From contig NZ_JAFEWD010000010.1 of assembly GCF_017355855.1 (NCBI RefSeq), positions 1-64,000 of the forward strand: 64,000 nt of DNA, in the 5' to 3' direction. The notes beneath the pieces are model-generated. The model made no database searches. It had not been told where the DNA came from and saw nothing but the letters and a program-made list of their open reading frames with translations. Shown here piece after piece: positions 37,318 to 43,738 of the stretch (its first letter is position 1; each line of letters starts with the position of its first letter). The translations under genes and the position numbers were made by a program. This DNA is from Pedobacter sp. SYSU D00535 (GTDB lineage: Bacteria; Bacteroidota; Bacteroidia; Sphingobacteriales; Sphingobacteriaceae).

Positions 37318-38133
37318 ATGGAAGCTAGCTTAAATAAAGATAACCCGGAAGTACGATTGAGGGCTTTCCGGGCAGTAGATGATCAGCATGCCTGTGAGCT
37401 TTTTGTGCAGGGGCATGAGCACGTACTTGCAAGTATTGGTGTTACAAAAGTTACTTCTTCAAAAAATGGCTGGATATCTAATCCGGGTGCTTTTGTGTTG
37501 ATCGTGGAGTCGTTGGATGGAAGTAAGGTATACGGCGGAGCACGGGTGCATGTGTCGGGAGGTTCGGAGCTTCTACCGTTAGAACAGGCAACAGGAGCTA
37601 TCGACCCTAACGTTTTTGAACTCGTTTGGAAGCATGCACAATATGGTGCGGGGGAGTTATGCGGGCTTTGGAATTCTAGAGAAATTGCCGGATACGGCAT
37701 TGGAAGTATCTTCCTGATCCGTGCAGCAGTGGCCATCGCCACCCAAATAGGCTTAAAATCCCTTTTTGCTCTCTGTGCGCCGTATACCGTTAAGCCTGTA
37801 GAAAGCGTAGGAATGCATCTTGAACCATCTGTGGGTAAGGATGGGACTTTCTATTATCCAAAACAAGATCTTGTTGCTACCACTATGGTCGTTACGGATC
37901 TGGATACTTTAAAGACTGCGGAACCGGAACACCGCGAGGCCATCTTCGCAATTCGGAATAATTTTAATACTACCCGGCTGGAAACTTTGCGGAACAAAGA
38001 GATCACGATTCACTATGAAACAAAGATTCCGAATTTAGATCAATGGGACCTGAACCAAATTATTTCAAATGCGTATACAAACTTCCTGAGCGCAAAGCCT
38101 GACACATCGAAGGCGAGTTTTCCATTTGGCTAG
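37318..38133 (+). CDS. GNAT-like acyltransferase, first gene of the ThiF/kinase cluster
   Basis: This 271-residue protein's first 170 residues look like a GNAT fold: RLRAFRAVDDQHACELFVQG (strand 1/helix 1), then ELCGLWNSREIAGYGIGSIF in the position of the acyl-CoA pyrophosphate loop, followed by a long helix AAVAIATQIGLKSLFAL and CAPYTVKPVESVGM. The wide spacing recalls autoinducer-synthase-like members more than protein acetylases, but no specific family is assigned. It is followed 35 bases later by a ThiF-type gene. A role in making a small acylated product with the E1-like partner is inferred from context. Confidence 0.6.
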   Translation: MEASLNKDNPEVRLRAFRAVDDQHACELFVQGHEHVLASIGVTKVTSSKNGWISNPGAFVLIVESLDGSKVYGGARVHVSGGSELLPLEQATGAIDPNVFELVWKHAQYGAGELCGLWNSREIAGYGIGSIFLIRAAVAIATQIGLKSLFALCAPYTVKPVESVGMHLEPSVGKDGTFYYPKQDLVATTMVVTDLDTLKTAEPEHREAIFAIRNNFNTTRLETLRNKEITIHYETKIPNLDQWDLNQIISNAYTNFLSAKPDTSKASFPFG

Positions 38134-38168
38134 ACAGGTTTCGGTGTTTTTCTGGTGGTGTAAGGGGA

Positions 38169-39248
38169 ATGTGTGATGAAATGAAAGACGTTTATTTACC
38201 TATAATTCTGAGATTGGAGCACGCCTCCGAACGATCTACTTTTGAGAGCTTATATCAGGATAGAGATACTATCTCTGTCTATGATGAAATTTTCTCTCAA
38301 CTGAAAGAGCTGATCAAGATCAGCCACCCCTCCAGGAAAATTGCCGAAGAAGAGTATCCATTATTAATTGAAGAGCATCTTGCAGGAAGAAGGATAGAAG
38401 AGTACGGCGTGTGGGTGTATTACCCCTGGAGTAGAAGATTGGTACATTTGCTTGATGAAGACGAATTTGTGGAGGTGCGCACAAACAGAAACAGAAATAA
38501 AATTACACGCGAGGAGCAGGATATTCTAAGAGCGAAAAAAATCGGTGTGGGTGGTTTGTCGGTAGGTCAGTCTATTGCGCTAACGCTTGCTATGGAACGG
38601 ACCTGCGGGGAAATAAGGCTCGCAGATTTCGATACTGCTGAACTGAGTAACCTGAACAGAATACGTGCCGGCGTGCACAACCTTGGCTTAAGCAAGACCA
38701 TCATTGCTGCCCGAGAGATTGCAGAGATCGACCCCTTTATTAAAGTGCGTATTTTCAACGACGGGCTTACCGAGAATAATCTTTCTGATATCTTTTTGTC
38801 GGGAGGAAAGCTCGATCTTTTTGTGGAGGTATGCGATGGAATTCAAATGAAGCTAACCAGCCGTTTGAAAGCAAAGGAGCTACAAATTCCGGTGGTGATG
38901 GATACTAATGACCGCGGCATGCTGGATGTGGAACGATTTGACCTGGAACCGGAAAGACCGATACTTCATGGATTTCTTGAACACTTTATCGGAGATGGAG
39001 CCATTACGGTAACAGATGAAAACCGGGGACAAATAGTAGGGGCGATCCTTAATTTCGAGACTCTTTCTGAAAGGATGAAACTATCTATGGCAGAGATCGG
39101 TAAAACGATTAACACCTGGCCTCAGTTAGCTTCATCAGTGGTGTTGGGAGGCGCGATAACAACTGACATTTGCCGCCGGATATTACTAGATCAGCATTCG
39201 GCATCAGGTCGCTATTATGTGGACCTGGATGAACTATTAAAAGATTGA
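38169..39248 (+). CDS. ThiF/E1-like adenylyltransferase of the Rv1355c (MoeY-like) type
   Basis: In this 359-residue protein, an N-terminal domain (1-120) with GVWVYYPWSRRLVHLLDEDE is followed by the E1 Rossmann fold: nucleotide loop G126-V-G-G-L-S-V-G133, DFD (153-155), SNLNR with R164, K176, and the C222-D223 segment. This N-terminal domain plus ThiF is the arrangement in mycobacterial Rv1355c (MoeY), but the nitroreductase-like half of that protein is missing. No CxxC zinc pairs are present. E1-like enzymes adenylate carboxyl groups, of small proteins or of small molecules. The partner here is unknown; the adjacent GNAT-like protein is the obvious candidate co-worker. Confidence 0.75.
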   Translation: MCDEMKDVYLPIILRLEHASERSTFESLYQDRDTISVYDEIFSQLKELIKISHPSRKIAEEEYPLLIEEHLAGRRIEEYGVWVYYPWSRRLVHLLDEDEFVEVRTNRNRNKITREEQDILRAKKIGVGGLSVGQSIALTLAMERTCGEIRLADFDTAELSNLNRIRAGVHNLGLSKTIIAAREIAEIDPFIKVRIFNDGLTENNLSDIFLSGGKLDLFVEVCDGIQMKLTSRLKAKELQIPVVMDTNDRGMLDVERFDLEPERPILHGFLEHFIGDGAITVTDENRGQIVGAILNFETLSERMKLSMAEIGKTINTWPQLASSVVLGGAITTDICRRILLDQHSASGRYYVDLDELLKD

Positions 39249-39291
39249 AATTGCTAAATAACGCCTGGACCTTTTAGTAAAAAACAAATTA

Positions 39292-41454
39292 ATGATTAAT
39301 TCAAAAAACGTCTTCCTGGCATTCTGCCTGATGCTATTTGCAGTGCAGCTGTTTGGACAGGATAAAACAATCTATTTCTCAAAAGCACTTCAACAGGATT
39401 TCATTGGGGAAAGCGTCTATGTTTTCCAGGACCGTAGTTCCAGCCTGAGCTTTAAAGAGATCGAACAGCAGGATTCCTTGTTCAAGCCCAGCCTGGTCAA
39501 GGTGCCTAACTTTGGGGTTTCCTCCTACGACAGCTGGATCCGGTTTACGGTGGTAAACGATCTTGATCTTAATAAGATGACGATCAATATCTCTAATCCC
39601 ATTATCGATGAGGTAACTTTATACATCAAAAAGAACGGGAACGTAGATAGTATCAAAACAAGCAACTACCAGTCGTTCAAAAAAAGACCGTACAAACACC
39701 AGTATTACTTATTCGATATTCCGTTGAAGAAAGGCGAAACAGCGGAGTGTTATCTCAAACTAGAAAGCAACCAGCAGATCCTGGCGCCAATTAGTATAGG
39801 TAACGATACCAGAATTATCTCTGAAATAAGTATTTCCGACACCAGAACGGGGCTTTACCTAGGCATTATGTTGGTGATGCTGCTCTATAACCTGTTTATC
39901 TACTTCACCACTAAAGACAGGGATTACCTGGTTTATTGTCACTATATTTTCTGGGTTACCTTAACTCAGGCAACGCTGTTGGGTTACTCGTACCGTTTCC
40001 TATGGCCGGAAAATTTGTGGATGGCCGAAAATATGGTGATTATATGCGGTGCAATGTCCGGGATTGCCACCATTATTTTTTCGATCTCCTTTCTTCGGAC
40101 ACGGAAGTTTTCACCAGGTCTTAGTAAGGTACTCTTTGCCACCATTGCCATGTATGTTCTTGCCCTAGTAGTGCTGCTTTTCGGAGCCAAACCGACTGCT
40201 TTTCAAATCGTAAACGTCAATGCAGCCTTGGTTTCACTCCTTATTATGTATACGGCCTGGCATATTTACCGCAAGAACTACGCACCAGCCAGATACTTTC
40301 TTCTCAGCTGGACTATATTTTTCCTTAGTATTTTGATCTTTGTTTCTAAGGATTACGGTGCTGTTCCCTATAATGCATTTACCATACATTCGGTGGAGAT
40401 AGGCTCGGCACTTGAGGCCGTATTCCTTTCTTTTGCACTCGCTGGGAAAATTAATATCCTTAAAAAAGAGAAAGAAGCATCGCAGGCAGAAGCGCTGGCA
40501 ATCGCTAAAGAAAATGAGCGTATCATACGTGAGCAGAATGTAATTCTCGAAGCGAAAGTCCATGAACGGACCGCAGAACTTGAAGAATCAAATAAAGAGT
40601 TGAACATTACTTTAGAAGACCTGAAACAGGCGCAGTCGCAACTTGTTGAGTCTGAAAAGATGGCTTCGCTCGGTCAGTTGACTGCCGGCATCGCACATGA
40701 AATTAATAACCCAATAAACTTCGTAACCTCCAATGTCACACCTCTTAAACGAGACGTCGAAATGCTGATCGATACATTAAATACTATCGAGCAAGTGGGG
40801 CTATCTGAGGCGCCGCCGGAAGAGAAGCGCAGGCATATCGAAGAATACAAGGAAGAAATGGATTTCGACTATCTTAAAACCGAGATAAGTTATCTTCTTA
40901 AAGGAATACATGAGGGAGCGTCCAGAACCGCGGAAATAGTAAAAGGATTGCGAATTTTTTCACGGGTGGATGAAGATGATCTTAAAAGGGCAGATATTAA
41001 CGAGGGCCTTGATTCAACATTAGTTATCGTGAATAATCTGCTAAACAAGATAAATCTGGTTAAAGAGTACGAAGTGTTACCGCTCGCTGAGTGTTACCCC
41101 GGAAAGCTTAACCAGGTGTTCCTCAACATCATCACCAATGCCATTCATGCTATCAATAGCAAGTTCCATGGTGAAGCAGGTGGCGAACTTTATATAAAGA
41201 CACATGCCGATCAGCACTCTGTTTTTATTACATTTAAAGATAATGGAACTGGGATGGATGATAAGACGATGAAAAAGATATTCGAGCCGTTCTTTACCAC
41301 GAAAGAAGTGGGCGAAGGAACAGGCCTGGGGATGTCCATTGCATACAACACTATAAAGAAACACAACGGGCAGATTAAATTATCATCAGAAGTTGGGAAG
41401 GGAACCGAGTTCGTAATCCAAATTCCCGTTATTCACGAAATAGTAACAACTTAA
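39292..41454 (+). CDS. 7TMR-DISM sensor histidine kinase
   Basis: This 720-residue protein has a signal peptide (1-23), a periplasmic 7TMR-DISMED2 domain (about 30-165: VPNFGVSSYDSWIRFTV), seven membrane helices (about 180-385), and a coiled coil (390-450: RIIREQNVILEAKVHERTAE). The kinase core has H469 in GIAHEINNPINFV and ATPase motifs FKDNGTGMDDKT and GEGTGLGMSIAYN. DISMED2 domains resemble carbohydrate- or small-ligand-binding modules. It lies 43 bases after the ThiF gene and upstream of two receiver-containing genes, so it is a plausible receptor for whatever the GNAT/ThiF pair makes. Confidence 0.88.
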   Translation: MINSKNVFLAFCLMLFAVQLFGQDKTIYFSKALQQDFIGESVYVFQDRSSSLSFKEIEQQDSLFKPSLVKVPNFGVSSYDSWIRFTVVNDLDLNKMTINISNPIIDEVTLYIKKNGNVDSIKTSNYQSFKKRPYKHQYYLFDIPLKKGETAECYLKLESNQQILAPISIGNDTRIISEISISDTRTGLYLGIMLVMLLYNLFIYFTTKDRDYLVYCHYIFWVTLTQATLLGYSYRFLWPENLWMAENMVIICGAMSGIATIIFSISFLRTRKFSPGLSKVLFATIAMYVLALVVLLFGAKPTAFQIVNVNAALVSLLIMYTAWHIYRKNYAPARYFLLSWTIFFLSILIFVSKDYGAVPYNAFTIHSVEIGSALEAVFLSFALAGKINILKKEKEASQAEALAIAKENERIIREQNVILEAKVHERTAELEESNKELNITLEDLKQAQSQLVESEKMASLGQLTAGIAHEINNPINFVTSNVTPLKRDVEMLIDTLNTIEQVGLSEAPPEEKRRHIEEYKEEMDFDYLKTEISYLLKGIHEGASRTAEIVKGLRIFSRVDEDDLKRADINEGLDSTLVIVNNLLNKINLVKEYEVLPLAECYPGKLNQVFLNIITNAIHAINSKFHGEAGGELYIKTHADQHSVFITFKDNGTGMDDKTMKKIFEPFFTTKEVGEGTGLGMSIAYNTIKKHNGQIKLSSEVGKGTEFVIQIPVIHEIVTT

Positions 41455-41530
41455 TTAGAGCGCTGTAGTATAAAGTCTAACTATTTGCTGAAAAAAGTCA
41501 AAAATACCGGCTCAACGCCAAGCTATAACT

Positions 41531-42616
41531 ATGCCCGACAAAATTAAGGTTTTATACATCGATGACGAGTTAAACAACTTGGTAGGCTTCAAAGCCTCCT
41601 TTAGATTTAGTTATCATGTATATACCGCAATAAACACTACCGAAGCAGTTGAAATACTGTCTGCCCAACAGGATATCAGAATCATCTTCTGCGACCAGCG
41701 GATGCCTGATAAAACCGGGGTAGAGTTTTTTGAGGAGATCAGGAGCCATTTTCCTCACCCCATACGCATATTGCTAACTGCTTACGCGGATATAGAAGCC
41801 GTTATTTCAGCAATCAATAGGGGCCATATCTTCAGATATGTTAAAAAGCCCTGGGTCGAGGCTGATATCATTTCTGCCATTGAAGAAGGAAACAAGTTTT
41901 TTATGGCGAATTCTATGCTTGCTGTCAAGAACGACGAACTGCAGAAGGCCTATAATGAGCTCGACAAGTTCGCCTATAGTGTTAGCCATGATATTCGCGG
42001 GCCTTTATCCGGTATCCTTGGGGCTATCAGGGTGGTGAGGCATTTAGACGATATCAAGGACATCAAGGAGATGTTGTACCTGATGGAAAATTCGGTGAAA
42101 AAGCTGGATACGTTTATCTTAAGTGTGCATGATTACTATAATCTTCAGCGGGGGGAACTTCAGATTAAAGAGATCGACATAAACTATCTTTTTAAAGACT
42201 TGGAAGACCTCTTTCGGGTGTCCATCACTGCCAATCAGATTAGCTTCATTACCAAAGTGAATCAACATGCTGCTTTCCGATGTGATGAAATGACGCTGAA
42301 GCTTATATTGAATAATTTGATAGCCAATGCGGTGAAGTATCAGCGTCTTAACTGCGACCAAAAGATGGTGGAGCTCACTGCTAATGTAGAAAGGACAAGT
42401 GCCACTTTCATCATAAAAGATAATGGAATTGGGATAGAAGAAAAACATATTACTGAAATTTTCAATTTGTTTTACCGTGCTACCTCGCAGGAGTCGGGGT
42501 CGGGCTTTGGGTTATATAATGTTAAAGACGCACTCTTGAAACTGAACGGGGATATTAAAGTGAGTTCAGTAGTTGATGAAGGGACAATTTTTACAGTAAC
42601 AATTCCGAGTAAGTAA
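41531..42616 (+). CDS. Receiver-histidine kinase
   Basis: In this 361-residue cytoplasmic protein, receiver 1-118 has D11/D12, phospho-acceptor D55 (CDQRMPD) and KKPW lysine. A coiled linker leads to a HisKA-type helix with H153 in SVSHDIRGPL, and HATPase_c has KDNGIGIEEKH and GSGFGLYNVKDAL. It can both receive phosphate from the DISM kinase and phosphorylate the receiver encoded next door. One base separates it from the next gene. Its receiver is a close relative of the protein at 43097. Confidence 0.87.
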   Translation: MPDKIKVLYIDDELNNLVGFKASFRFSYHVYTAINTTEAVEILSAQQDIRIIFCDQRMPDKTGVEFFEEIRSHFPHPIRILLTAYADIEAVISAINRGHIFRYVKKPWVEADIISAIEEGNKFFMANSMLAVKNDELQKAYNELDKFAYSVSHDIRGPLSGILGAIRVVRHLDDIKDIKEMLYLMENSVKKLDTFILSVHDYYNLQRGELQIKEIDINYLFKDLEDLFRVSITANQISFITKVNQHAAFRCDEMTLKLILNNLIANAVKYQRLNCDQKMVELTANVERTSATFIIKDNGIGIEEKHITEIFNLFYRATSQESGSGFGLYNVKDALLKLNGDIKVSSVVDEGTIFTVTIPSK

Positions 42617-42617
42617 G

Positions 42618-43028
42618 ATGGCGGAGATTAAAACAAACTTTATTGTAATAGACGATAGCGAGCTGGATTGTTTTATTGCTGAAAAAATGATCAGGCATAC
42701 GGGGAAATGTGGCACCGTAATTAGCTTTAATACTGCGGCGGAAGCGCTGGAGTATGTTAAAAACAGGGAAGTAGATGATGATGAGGACTGTCGTACCGTC
42801 TTAATTCTTGACGTACTCATGCCCTTGATGAGCGGCTTCGCCTTTGTGGAAGAATTTGAGAAACTCCCTCATTCTATTCAAGACCGGTACTTTATTGTCG
42901 CTTTAACATCTTCCATGAACCGTAATGACATGGATAAAATCAAAAGCTACCGATCGGTAAGGCTTTTGCTTGACAAACCAATTACGTCCGAAGCTATCTC
43001 AGCGTTTATAGCTGCAGATAAACTATAG
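42618..43028 (+). CDS. Single-domain response regulator
   Basis: In this 136-residue CheY-like receiver, the acidic pair is D12-D13, the phospho-acceptor is D65 in ILDVLMPLMSG, the switch Thr/Ser is ALTSS, and the Lys is in LLDKPI. There is no output domain. It starts one base after the receiver-kinase stop and is followed by a strong terminator, so it is the end of the signalling operon. It may act as phosphate shuttle or sink. Confidence 0.87.
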   Translation: MAEIKTNFIVIDDSELDCFIAEKMIRHTGKCGTVISFNTAAEALEYVKNREVDDDEDCRTVLILDVLMPLMSGFAFVEEFEKLPHSIQDRYFIVALTSSMNRNDMDKIKSYRSVRLLLDKPITSEAISAFIAADKL

Positions 43029-43051
43029 CAACTGCCTGGTCAGGTGCAATT

Positions 43052-43085
43052 AAAAAAGGCTTGTCGTTGCGACAAGCCTTTTTTT
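43052..43085 (+). terminator. Terminator of the signalling operon
   Basis: A perfect 11-base-pair stem (AAGGCTTGTCG / CGACAAGCCTT) with a 3-base loop is flanked by A and T runs. It also serves the convergent gene ending at 43097. Confidence 0.9.
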
Positions 43086-43096
43086 GTTGTTCGACT

Positions 43097-43561
43097 TCAG
43101 GATAGTAATTTCTGCCGGAGCAAAAACTCAAGCTGATCGTTAGAAACGCATAGCTTGTCATTCATCTCTTTAATATCCTGACGTTCTTTGTAAACCTCGA
43201 AAGCCCTTTCGATCGAAACAGAAAGCTCTTCCTCGTTCCACGGTTTTGCGAGATAATGGAATATTTTTCCTTTGTTTACAGCATCTACAACAGCATTCAT
43301 GTCTGCATACCCTGTAAGCAGGAGACGCATCGGATCAGGATATTTTTCCAGAACCTTCTCCAGAAATTCCACGCCCGTCATGTTCGGCATACGTTGATCT
43401 GTAATAATAACTTCAATCGGTTTAGATTCTATAATCTTCATCGCCTCGTCGCCACTCAGCGCGATAAACACATTATACTTTAGTCTGAAAGTCGCCTTAA
43501 AGGAAATAAGGTTGTTCTCTTCGTCGTCAACGTAAAGTATGTTAATTTTTTTGTTTGACAT
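43097..43561 (-). CDS. Response regulator with C-terminal coiled coil
   Basis: I place the start at ATG 43561 (154 residues: MSNKKINILYVDDEENN); a longer frame from 43609 adds 16 unlikely residues. Receiver motifs are D12-D13, D55 in ITDQRMPNMTGVEFLE, and AKPW. It ends in a charged helix (ERAFEVYKERQDIKEMNDKL) that may dimerise. The receiver closely resembles that of the gene at 41531, suggesting duplication. It is convergent to the operon and probably part of the same circuit. Confidence 0.83.
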   Translation of the reverse strand: MSNKKINILYVDDEENNLISFKATFRLKYNVFIALSGDEAMKIIESKPIEVIITDQRMPNMTGVEFLEKVLEKYPDPMRLLLTGYADMNAVVDAVNKGKIFHYLAKPWNEEELSVSIERAFEVYKERQDIKEMNDKLCVSNDQLEFLLRQKLLS

Positions 43562-43738
43562 TAATAAGCAATTAAAAGAATCCTGGGAAAGGAGAAAAGA
43601 CCTCTCCAATAAAAAACTTGTACGGTAATGTTACAAAAAAAGTTTTATTCATTCAATAAATCAACGCCAATATAAAAGTCGCAGAAACTTAATAAGATAA
43701 GCCTTGTTAAAAATAAATCTAACTAAGAAAAACATAAT

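Follow-up and report, generated by a model that had tools for sequence, protein, structure and literature searches.

Described systems and the locus

The chemistry closest to that considered here is known from other phyla. The mycobacterial protein Rv1355c is TrzS; its partner TrzA acylates tryptophan, and both enzymes together make N-acyl tryptazolones (PMC12856293). The ThiF domain of TrzS cyclises and its flavin oxidase domain then desaturates; a mutated oxidase or a shortage of O2 makes the saturated ring build up. Acid hydrolyses the oxazolones, according to the same source. There, the role of the oxazolones is called a major unresolved question, their likeness to cell-cell signals is raised, and genes of c-di-GMP (cyclic diguanylate) metabolism are mentioned as neighbours of trzAS. 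We here describe a gene cluster at positions 37,318 to 43,561 of a stretch of 64,000 nucleotides ("the window"; contig NZ_JAFEWD010000010.1, assembly GCF_017355855.1) from Pedobacter sp. SYSU D00535, a member of the Bacteroidota. It comprises genes for a GNAT-fold protein, a ThiF protein, a 7TMR-DISM receptor histidine kinase, a receiver-kinase and stand-alone receivers. Probably, the cluster is a self-contained quorum-sensing-like system built from an autoinducer synthase and a receptor kinase, with the tailoring enzyme and the sensor domain moving as a matched pair.

With OxzAB of Pseudoalteromonas, TyzACB and the mycobacterial TrzAS, the cluster shares a (here predicted) N-acyl amino acid synthase gene that adjoins the gene of an Rv1355c-family ThiF cyclase. 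Moreover, 64 of 168 classified relatives of the cluster keep a long ThiF open reading frame (ORF), which should include the flavin oxidase. The window differs in that its ThiF protein has neither a fused nor an adjacent oxidase. The cluster as such differs by the adjoining receptor kinase and receivers, by a ThiF protein that is replaceable in relatives, and by its host phylum. The initial annotation of the window had proposed a synthesis-plus-receptor module not described before. The receptor coupling is indeed the new part; the chemistry of GNAT plus ThiF, however, is already described (Oxz, Tyz, Trz).

For the arrangement of synthase and receptor, Ralstonia is the model. Its phcBSRQ form one operon encoding the synthase PhcB (a methyltransferase), the sensor kinase PhcS, PhcR, which combines receiver and kinase, and the receiver PhcQ; PhcR and PhcQ are presented as devoid of DNA-binding domains in PMC8578825. 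Compared by layout alone, our cluster likewise unites in one operon the genes of a predicted synthase, a sensor kinase, a receiver-kinase and a receiver, with no recognised DNA-binding domain in the last two, and its methyltransferase-type relatives show the closest resemblance. It differs by an extra N-acyl synthase, by ThiF in the window and by the 7TMR-DISM sensor, and no PhcA-like regulator was identified with it.

A joint variation of signal and receptor is familiar from Gram-positive bacteria. In the agr and ComQXP pherotypes, the gene that modifies the signal varies in step with the sensing part of the receptor, and the kinase is conserved. These systems use peptides; in the present cluster, in contrast, what varies is an enzyme that tailors a small molecule and is drawn from unrelated families. 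Against the known pairs of synthase and receptor kinase, the cluster stands out by new chemistry, by a swap cassette and by a phylum that the literature searched did not connect with such pairs. Among the papers listed by searches of the open-access literature (for some searches the top of the list), which leaves most subscription journals outside, none connected a DISM kinase of Bacteroidota with the synthases of oxazolones or N-acyl amino acids, and the top entries for the phylum or its genera contained no such synthase-receptor pair.

Joint exchange of tailoring enzyme and sensor half

The constant core of the cluster is the GNAT protein, the DISM kinase and the receivers; ThiF is one of several swappable enzymes. 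The initial annotation had taken GNAT and ThiF as the enzyme pair of the module; it is amended here in that ThiF is interchangeable. The 168 classified loci comprise ThiF-oxidase (64), ThiF alone (54), S-adenosylmethionine (SAM) methyltransferase (32), ICMT-type methyltransferase (5) and flavin adenine dinucleotide (FAD) oxidase (2). Nine further ones have no enzyme, the gap between the GNAT and kinase genes being -46 to 216 base pairs (bp) in eight and 651 bp in one, and two are of unresolved class. ThiF alone and ThiF-oxidase were told apart by ORF length (below or above 600 amino acids), so that sequencing frameshifts could misassign single rows; in the one long ThiF ORF scanned, Pfam confirmed the Nitroreductase domain. 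As for the SAM methyltransferases, three of the first seven were scanned with Pfam and the remainder were assigned by BLAST; the ICMT-type identity was confirmed by Pfam in two loci.

If the product of these enzymes is the ligand of the kinase, tracking of the tailoring enzyme is to be expected for the sensor half of the kinase protein but not for its kinase half. The trees show this division. Residues 1 to about 400 of the kinase protein are a sensor half that tracks the enzyme; residues from about 440 to 720 are a kinase half that does not. Across the 88 loci having all genes, the three classes ThiF, ThiF-oxidase and methyltransferase require 6 changes on the tree of the extracellular domain and 5 on that of the seven-transmembrane (7TM) domain. 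The same classes require 21 changes on the kinase-half tree, 22 on that of the receiver-kinase, 20 on that of the stand-alone receiver REC2 and 16 on that of the GNAT protein; shuffled class labels give about 42. The break falls close to residue 400: a 100-residue window moved along the kinase protein gives 4-6 class changes up to 351-450 and 19-21 from 401-500 onward.

The coupling to the sensor is best proven for ThiF versus methyltransferase, less so for the finer classes. This distinction requires a single change on the sensor tree over the 88 loci, as opposed to 9 on the GNAT, 9 on the kinase-half, 11 on the receiver-kinase and 9 on the REC2 tree. In a larger set of 141 loci, which takes in the further families, ThiF versus the rest changes twice on the sensor tree, 16 times on the kinase half, 18 times on the receiver-kinase, 15 times on REC2 and 11 times on GNAT. 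For all classes the corresponding numbers are 16 (sensor), 38, 37, 37 and 25. This set omits 27 of the 168 loci, which had no receiver-kinase of 280-500 amino acids, no REC2 below 230 amino acids, an unresolved class or an identical GNAT. In a sample of 47 rows, the 14 methyltransferase rows come together on the sensor tree as a single clade (support 100), which is rejected on the kinase tree (p-AU, the p value of the approximately unbiased test, 6.5e-15). The gap is stable in twelve column bootstraps over 74 loci, with 3-4 changes for the sensor versus 16-19 for the kinase half. Tailoring enzyme and sensor half have been exchanged jointly between species, above all where ThiF and methyltransferase alternate.

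A pair of Mucilaginibacter loci illustrates the exchange. Between L123 (ThiF-oxidase) and L113 (ThiF), the receptors are 18-50% identical over residues 1-400, with sensors about 30% alike, and 70-100% beyond; the GNAT blocks are 73-93% and the receiver-kinases 83-97% identical. The early proposal that the enzymes make or modify a compound which the kinase senses gains support, with the addition that only the sensor half of that kinase tracks the tailoring enzyme.

Two DISM kinases outside the cluster may be mentioned here. The genome of the window itself contains an orphan 7TMR-DISM kinase (L264:7038-9185, contig C11) that is 43-44% identical to the window kinase. Its sensor is nearest to those of the methyltransferase class (48%), its kinase half is 57-59% identical to cluster kinases, and no GNAT and no cluster receivers stand alongside; it may listen to another dialect. 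In genome G026, an ORF of 517 amino acids that by eye resembles FAD-linked oxidases and has no match to the cluster FAD oxidase adjoins a DISM kinase that is less closely related (33-36% identity; L265:7517-11164). The two are possibly another synthase-receptor pair.

The predicted synthase

The GNAT-like protein of the window (271 amino acids) has no Pfam and no NCBIfam match, and its early designation as GNAT-like finds its support in the predicted fold. With the AlphaFold2 model (pLDDT 83.5, pTM 0.84) as query, FeeM (2g0b) was the best structural match in both structure searches, followed by N-acyl homoserine lactone (AHL) synthases. The top twelve rows of Foldseek were all FeeM or AHL synthases; the second aligner gave Z 14.3 for FeeM (178 residues, 3.0 Å), 13.2 for BjaI and 12.6 for LasI. 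The modelled fold is thus nearest to FeeM, an N-acyl amino acid synthase, and to the coenzyme A-dependent homoserine-lactone synthases. Of course, a common fold does not fix the substrate of the GNAT protein. Its sequence identity to FeeM and the LuxI-type matches is about 10%, and it differs from them in being without a LuxR-type partner. Among 34 aligned GNAT relatives, one matched the Pfam family FeeM (6.4e-4) and five matched Acetyltransf_1; the window protein matched neither.

A search of the PDB by the GNAT sequence was discarded: its top match was a repeat-protein artefact of 20 residues, and a true GNAT appeared only at E 0.6. One locus (L211, genome G555) carries tandem GNAT copies of 236 and 239 amino acids between ThiF-oxidase and DISM kinase.

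The ThiF protein

The second gene was initially assigned to the Rv1355c type without its nitroreductase half. This proved apt: the protein matches NCBIfam PRK07877 ("Rv1355c family protein") with 467.3 bits (cut-off 476), its residues 5-358 covering profile positions 7-340 of 722. Pfam ThiF is matched with E 1.5e-14, and in 13 of 20 plasmid records matched the protein is 44-49% identical to Actinomycete Rv1355c-family or ThiF proteins. Between the ThiF stop and the start of the DISM kinase lie 43 bp with no oxidase remnant. No flavin oxidase was found among the nine neighbour proteins scanned with Pfam, and the ThiF ORF is only 359 amino acids long. D223, R164 and K176, which by the precedent of MoeB are the presumed catalytic set, are invariant across 25 aligned sequences, in ThiF-alone and ThiF-oxidase forms alike; D223 aligns with an aspartate of solved ThiF-fold proteins. 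The predicted reaction of the window ThiF is ring closure of an N-acyl amino acid to the azlactone (5-oxazolone).

It is conceivable, though unlikely, that the ThiF-only loci, the window included, have lost oxazolone synthesis and that their ThiF does another job, such as activation of the N-acyl amino acid for amide formation or hydrolysis. By ORF length, 54 of the 168 loci lack the oxidase half, and no other gene family recurs inside the cluster, so that there is no separate cluster oxidase to replace it. The invariance of the presumed catalytic residues in both ThiF forms argues the other way. So does the order of events in TrzS, which cyclises before it desaturates and accumulates the saturated ring with the oxidase disabled or O2 short; from what PMC12856293 describes, a cyclase on its own is chemically sensible.

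Other identities of the ThiF protein were considered and rejected. As MoeB, ThiF or TcdA it would be misplaced, the other 15 NCBIfam models scoring 23-58 bits versus 467 for PRK07877; the genome moreover holds two other ThiF-domain proteins. An anti-phage E1-E2 system was dismissed, the PADLOC matches being weak and confined to the common ThiF fold (best 3.9e-6). The initial annotation would have fallen with clear, unrelated housekeeping roles of its two enzymes. None emerged, neither for the GNAT protein with its FeeM/AHL synthase fold nor for ThiF as a member of the TrzS family.

Two loci left out of the class counts were L124, which has a cut ThiF, and L087; L249, with a short kinase ORF, lies outside the 168. 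In L087 (9358-11666) the ThiF-oxidase frame is split into 545 amino acids and a separate piece of 227, with the other genes in place, which is either a broken oxidase or a sequencing error. On a Streptomyces plasmid (L191:4929-6727), a stand-alone ThiF, 45% identical to that of the window, is followed by a GNAT gene without detectable similarity to the window GNAT.

Conservation and distribution

Across genera, the GNAT and DISM kinase genes stay together, which answers the adjacency check proposed at the outset. Among 100 relatives, the GNAT is present in 45 and a close ThiF homologue (E<=1e-100) in 37, and all 37 carry the GNAT; the other eight GNAT genomes have a SAM methyltransferase (7) or a FAD-binding oxidase (1) in the ThiF position. 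Searched with the GNAT alignment, named genomes gave at least 595 matching stretches, of which at least 542 were confirmed and 80 loci kept. ThiF occurs at 51 of the 80 loci and the methyltransferase at the other 29, without overlap; the DISM kinase is present at 77. The window, 44 relatives and the named-genome loci were then reduced to 109 loci with distinct GNAT proteins. The kinase stands in the cluster at 105 of them, and the remaining four run off the contig end.

The phylum-wide draw showed the GNAT in 14 of 392 Bacteroidota genomes; eight new ones were fetched, all eight with the kinase. In two further families the GNAT occurs in 46 of 147 and 23 of 98 genomes. At the further loci from the phylum and family draws the DISM kinase is present in 65 of 68, the misses being L215 (contig end), L260 and L261; GNAT matches in G502, G573, G650 and G703 were left out of the loci, and the second GNAT of G555 was not counted apart. 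L260 and L261 have distant GNATs (E about 1e-38 and 1e-33) beside FAD oxidases, with a kinase of about 760 amino acids in place of the DISM kinase, and are maybe a second architecture with another receptor.

For co-occurrence, 60 relatives were scored on the 18 best first-look candidates of each genome. At E<=1e-80, the kinase is found in all 31 synthase-positive genomes and in one of the 29 negative ones, there as kinase domain only. These 32 genomes are also the ones with REC2 matches (E<=1e-30). A stand-alone REC2 frame of 155-178 amino acids is present in 28 of the 31 synthase-positive genomes; G008 and G032 match solely via the receiver-kinase, and the match in G068 lies inside a longer open frame.

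Layout of the locus and its neighbours

The six ORFs named in the initial annotation, five of them on the + strand with short gaps up to a terminator and one convergent, were all confirmed, as were the gaps (35, 43, 76 and 1 bp between the five + genes) and the 15-pair stem (Table 1). Its domain calls for receptor kinase, receiver-kinase and lone receivers likewise agree with Pfam. The kinase protein matches 7TMR-DISM_7TM (PF07695, 5.6e-47), 7TMR-DISMED2 (PF07696, 2e-28) and HATPase_c (PF02518), all over cut-off. By these domain matches it corresponds to the definition of a 7TMR-DISM receptor kinase, i.e., a DISMED extracellular domain, a DISM 7TM region and a histidine kinase. The receiver-kinase contains Response_reg and HATPase_c; HisKA stays slightly below the Pfam cut-off in both kinases. 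The suspected relationship of REC2 to the receiver of the receiver-kinase is borne out by 44% identity over 140 residues. The open frame of REC2 is extendable to a TTG at 43609; in other genomes the gene lies upstream of the gene for the synthase or for ThiF and points away from it. REC1 was labelled in 60 of the 109 loci with distinct GNATs.

Table 1. Features of the cluster in the window
Feature	Position	Strand	Size and basis
N-acyl amino acid synthase-like protein (GNAT fold), predicted signal synthase	37318..38133	+	271 aa; predicted fold
ThiF/E1-like cyclase, stand-alone N-terminal half of Rv1355c (TrzS) family	38169..39248	+	359 aa; NCBIfam, Pfam
7TMR-DISM receptor histidine kinase	39292..41454	+	720 aa; Pfam, sliding-window trees, pairwise identity profiles
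Receiver + histidine kinase protein, PhcR-like layout, without recognised DNA-binding domain	41531..42616	+	361 aa; Pfam
Stand-alone receiver REC1, absent from some loci	42618..43028	+	136 aa; Pfam Response_reg
Intrinsic terminator-like hairpin ending the + operon	43052..43084	+	15-pair stem, then T-rich tail
Stand-alone receiver REC2, convergent in the window	43097..43561	-	154 aa from ATG; Pfam Response_reg

The neighbours of 177 loci were surveyed by sorting 1043 unlabelled ORFs within 3 kilobases (kb) into families by BLAST and naming these by eye. No further gene family recurs within the cluster, thus no common transporter or immunity gene. The commonest flanking families occur in 23, 20, 20, 19 and 17 of the 177 loci; to judge by eye they are a PorX-type receiver, alanine dehydrogenase, pyrophosphatase, TsaE and thioredoxin, and they are taken for lineage-specific context. 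At L246 (10744-12351) and 22 other loci, all of one family, the PorX-looking response regulator flanks the cluster together with genes resembling those of alanine dehydrogenase and TsaE; its position is probably old synteny, although a receiver protein next to the system may be considered as output. In genome G065 (L088:12456-14609) a REC-PAS-HisKA_3 kinase (476 amino acids, Pfam) occupies the usual position of the receiver-kinase and is followed by a response regulator that by eye looks LuxR-type (235 amino acids). The latter is a candidate for the transcriptional output of the system.

The neighbourhood also bears on what kind of product is made. It might be an antibiotic, surfactant or membrane lipid of the N-acyl amino acid type, the DISM kinase sensing envelope or lipid stress and regulating its production; we regard this as rather unlikely. 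Stieleriacines, N-acyl tyrosines related to this chemistry, are antimicrobial, and tryptazolones were enriched in cell pellets (both PMC12856293); moreover, a kinase that monitored its own product should show the same coupling to the enzyme through its sensor, and autoregulation by the product is conceivable. A common transporter or immunity family inside the cluster is, however, missing, and flanking families do not exceed 23 of the 177 loci. Further, the ThiF/methyltransferase state changes only 1-2 times on the trees of the sensor half; direct recognition of the product accounts for such co-segregation better than a generic sensing of stress.

Proposed mechanism and points against it

In the mechanism that we favour, the GNAT-fold protein would join an acyl chain to an amino acid, as its FeeM/LuxI-like fold suggests. 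The stand-alone ThiF would then activate the carboxylate with ATP and close the N-acyl azlactone. In relatives, the fused flavin oxidase would desaturate the azlactone to the oxazolone, or a SAM- or ICMT-type methyltransferase would take the place of ThiF and, to go by these enzyme families, probably cap the same carboxylate as a methyl ester. The enzyme that gave ICMT its name methylates the carboxylate of a lipidated cysteine. That three unrelated enzymes could each modify the carboxylate of an N-acyl amino acid lends support to the proposed chemistry. The product would leave the cell and bind to the sensor half of the DISM kinase, i.e., the extracellular DISMED2 and 7TM domains. Phosphoryl groups would move on to the receiver-kinase and the lone receivers, none of which has a recognised DNA-binding domain, as the layout shared with Ralstonia phcBSRQ suggests.

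Several observations weigh against this reading. Saturated azlactones are reactive compounds with a possibly short lifetime. In the structural comparison, generic acetyltransferases reach Z 12.5, level with LasI at 12.6. An acyltransferase candidate beside the ThiF homologue of an Actinomycete plasmid matches the GNAT alignment weakly (E 0.0026, probability 12%), and a second candidate from another such plasmid locus does not match it; because these profile matches are weak or absent, we do not claim a sequence-based common descent of the GNAT protein and TrzA. Of the three Actinomycete plasmid loci examined among the 20 records matched, none has a DISM kinase annotated next to its ThiF homologue, the gene table being incomplete. 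The survey of the 3-kb flanks of the 177 loci found no output regulator.

The trees, too, contain adverse points. ThiF alone versus ThiF-oxidase is followed equally by GNAT and sensor in the 141 loci (9 versus 9 changes). At the 52 loci of gene order B (ThiF-GNAT-kinase), GNAT requires 4 and the sensor 5 changes for the same distinction. The ICMT type (5 rows) and the no-enzyme class (8 rows) have no clear link to the sensor, with 4 and 4 changes there versus 5 and 6 on the kinase half. Nearest neighbours agree in class in 81 of 88 rows for GNAT, as compared with 86 of 88 for the sensor. Among the ThiF loci, the correlation of ThiF distances is weaker with the sensor (rho 0.49) than with the kinase half (0.72); once REC2 is allowed for, both come to 0.44.

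Finally, the loci of order A place the enzyme gene beside the sensor-coding end of the kinase gene, so that one recombination tract could add to the link. Carried further, this becomes an explanation by hitch-hiking: a recombination hotspot between the enzyme gene and the kinase linker would move both mechanically, with no matching to a ligand. In order A the end of the enzyme gene does adjoin the beginning of the kinase gene, and the conserved linker in which the break is located would be a natural tract of homology. Yet the GNAT gene, which is as close on the other side of the enzyme gene, is far less linked (74 order-A loci; methyltransferase versus ThiF, 8 versus 1 changes). At the order-B loci the sensor follows ThiF alone versus ThiF-oxidase better than the kinase half does (5 versus 10 changes), though GNAT does so as well (4). 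Mechanical co-transfer as the whole explanation strikes us as very improbable.

Implications

Beyond the single locus, we lean towards the view that Bacteroidota possess a native, hitherto undescribed family of quorum-sensing systems in which N-acyl amino acids, finished as azlactone, oxazolone, methyl ester or uncapped acid, serve as distinct signals. Its dialects would evolve by exchanging a cassette of tailoring enzyme and sensor half in front of a conserved kinase.

If this is true, small-molecule signalling would be common in parts of the Bacteroidota, and the oxazolones would gain a function as signals. The co-exchange of a conserved receptor makes the role of the oxazolones directly testable, as producer, receptor, and matched and mismatched pairs are named by genes in related soil bacteria. 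The family would then also offer a natural experiment in the joint change of signal and receptor specificity.

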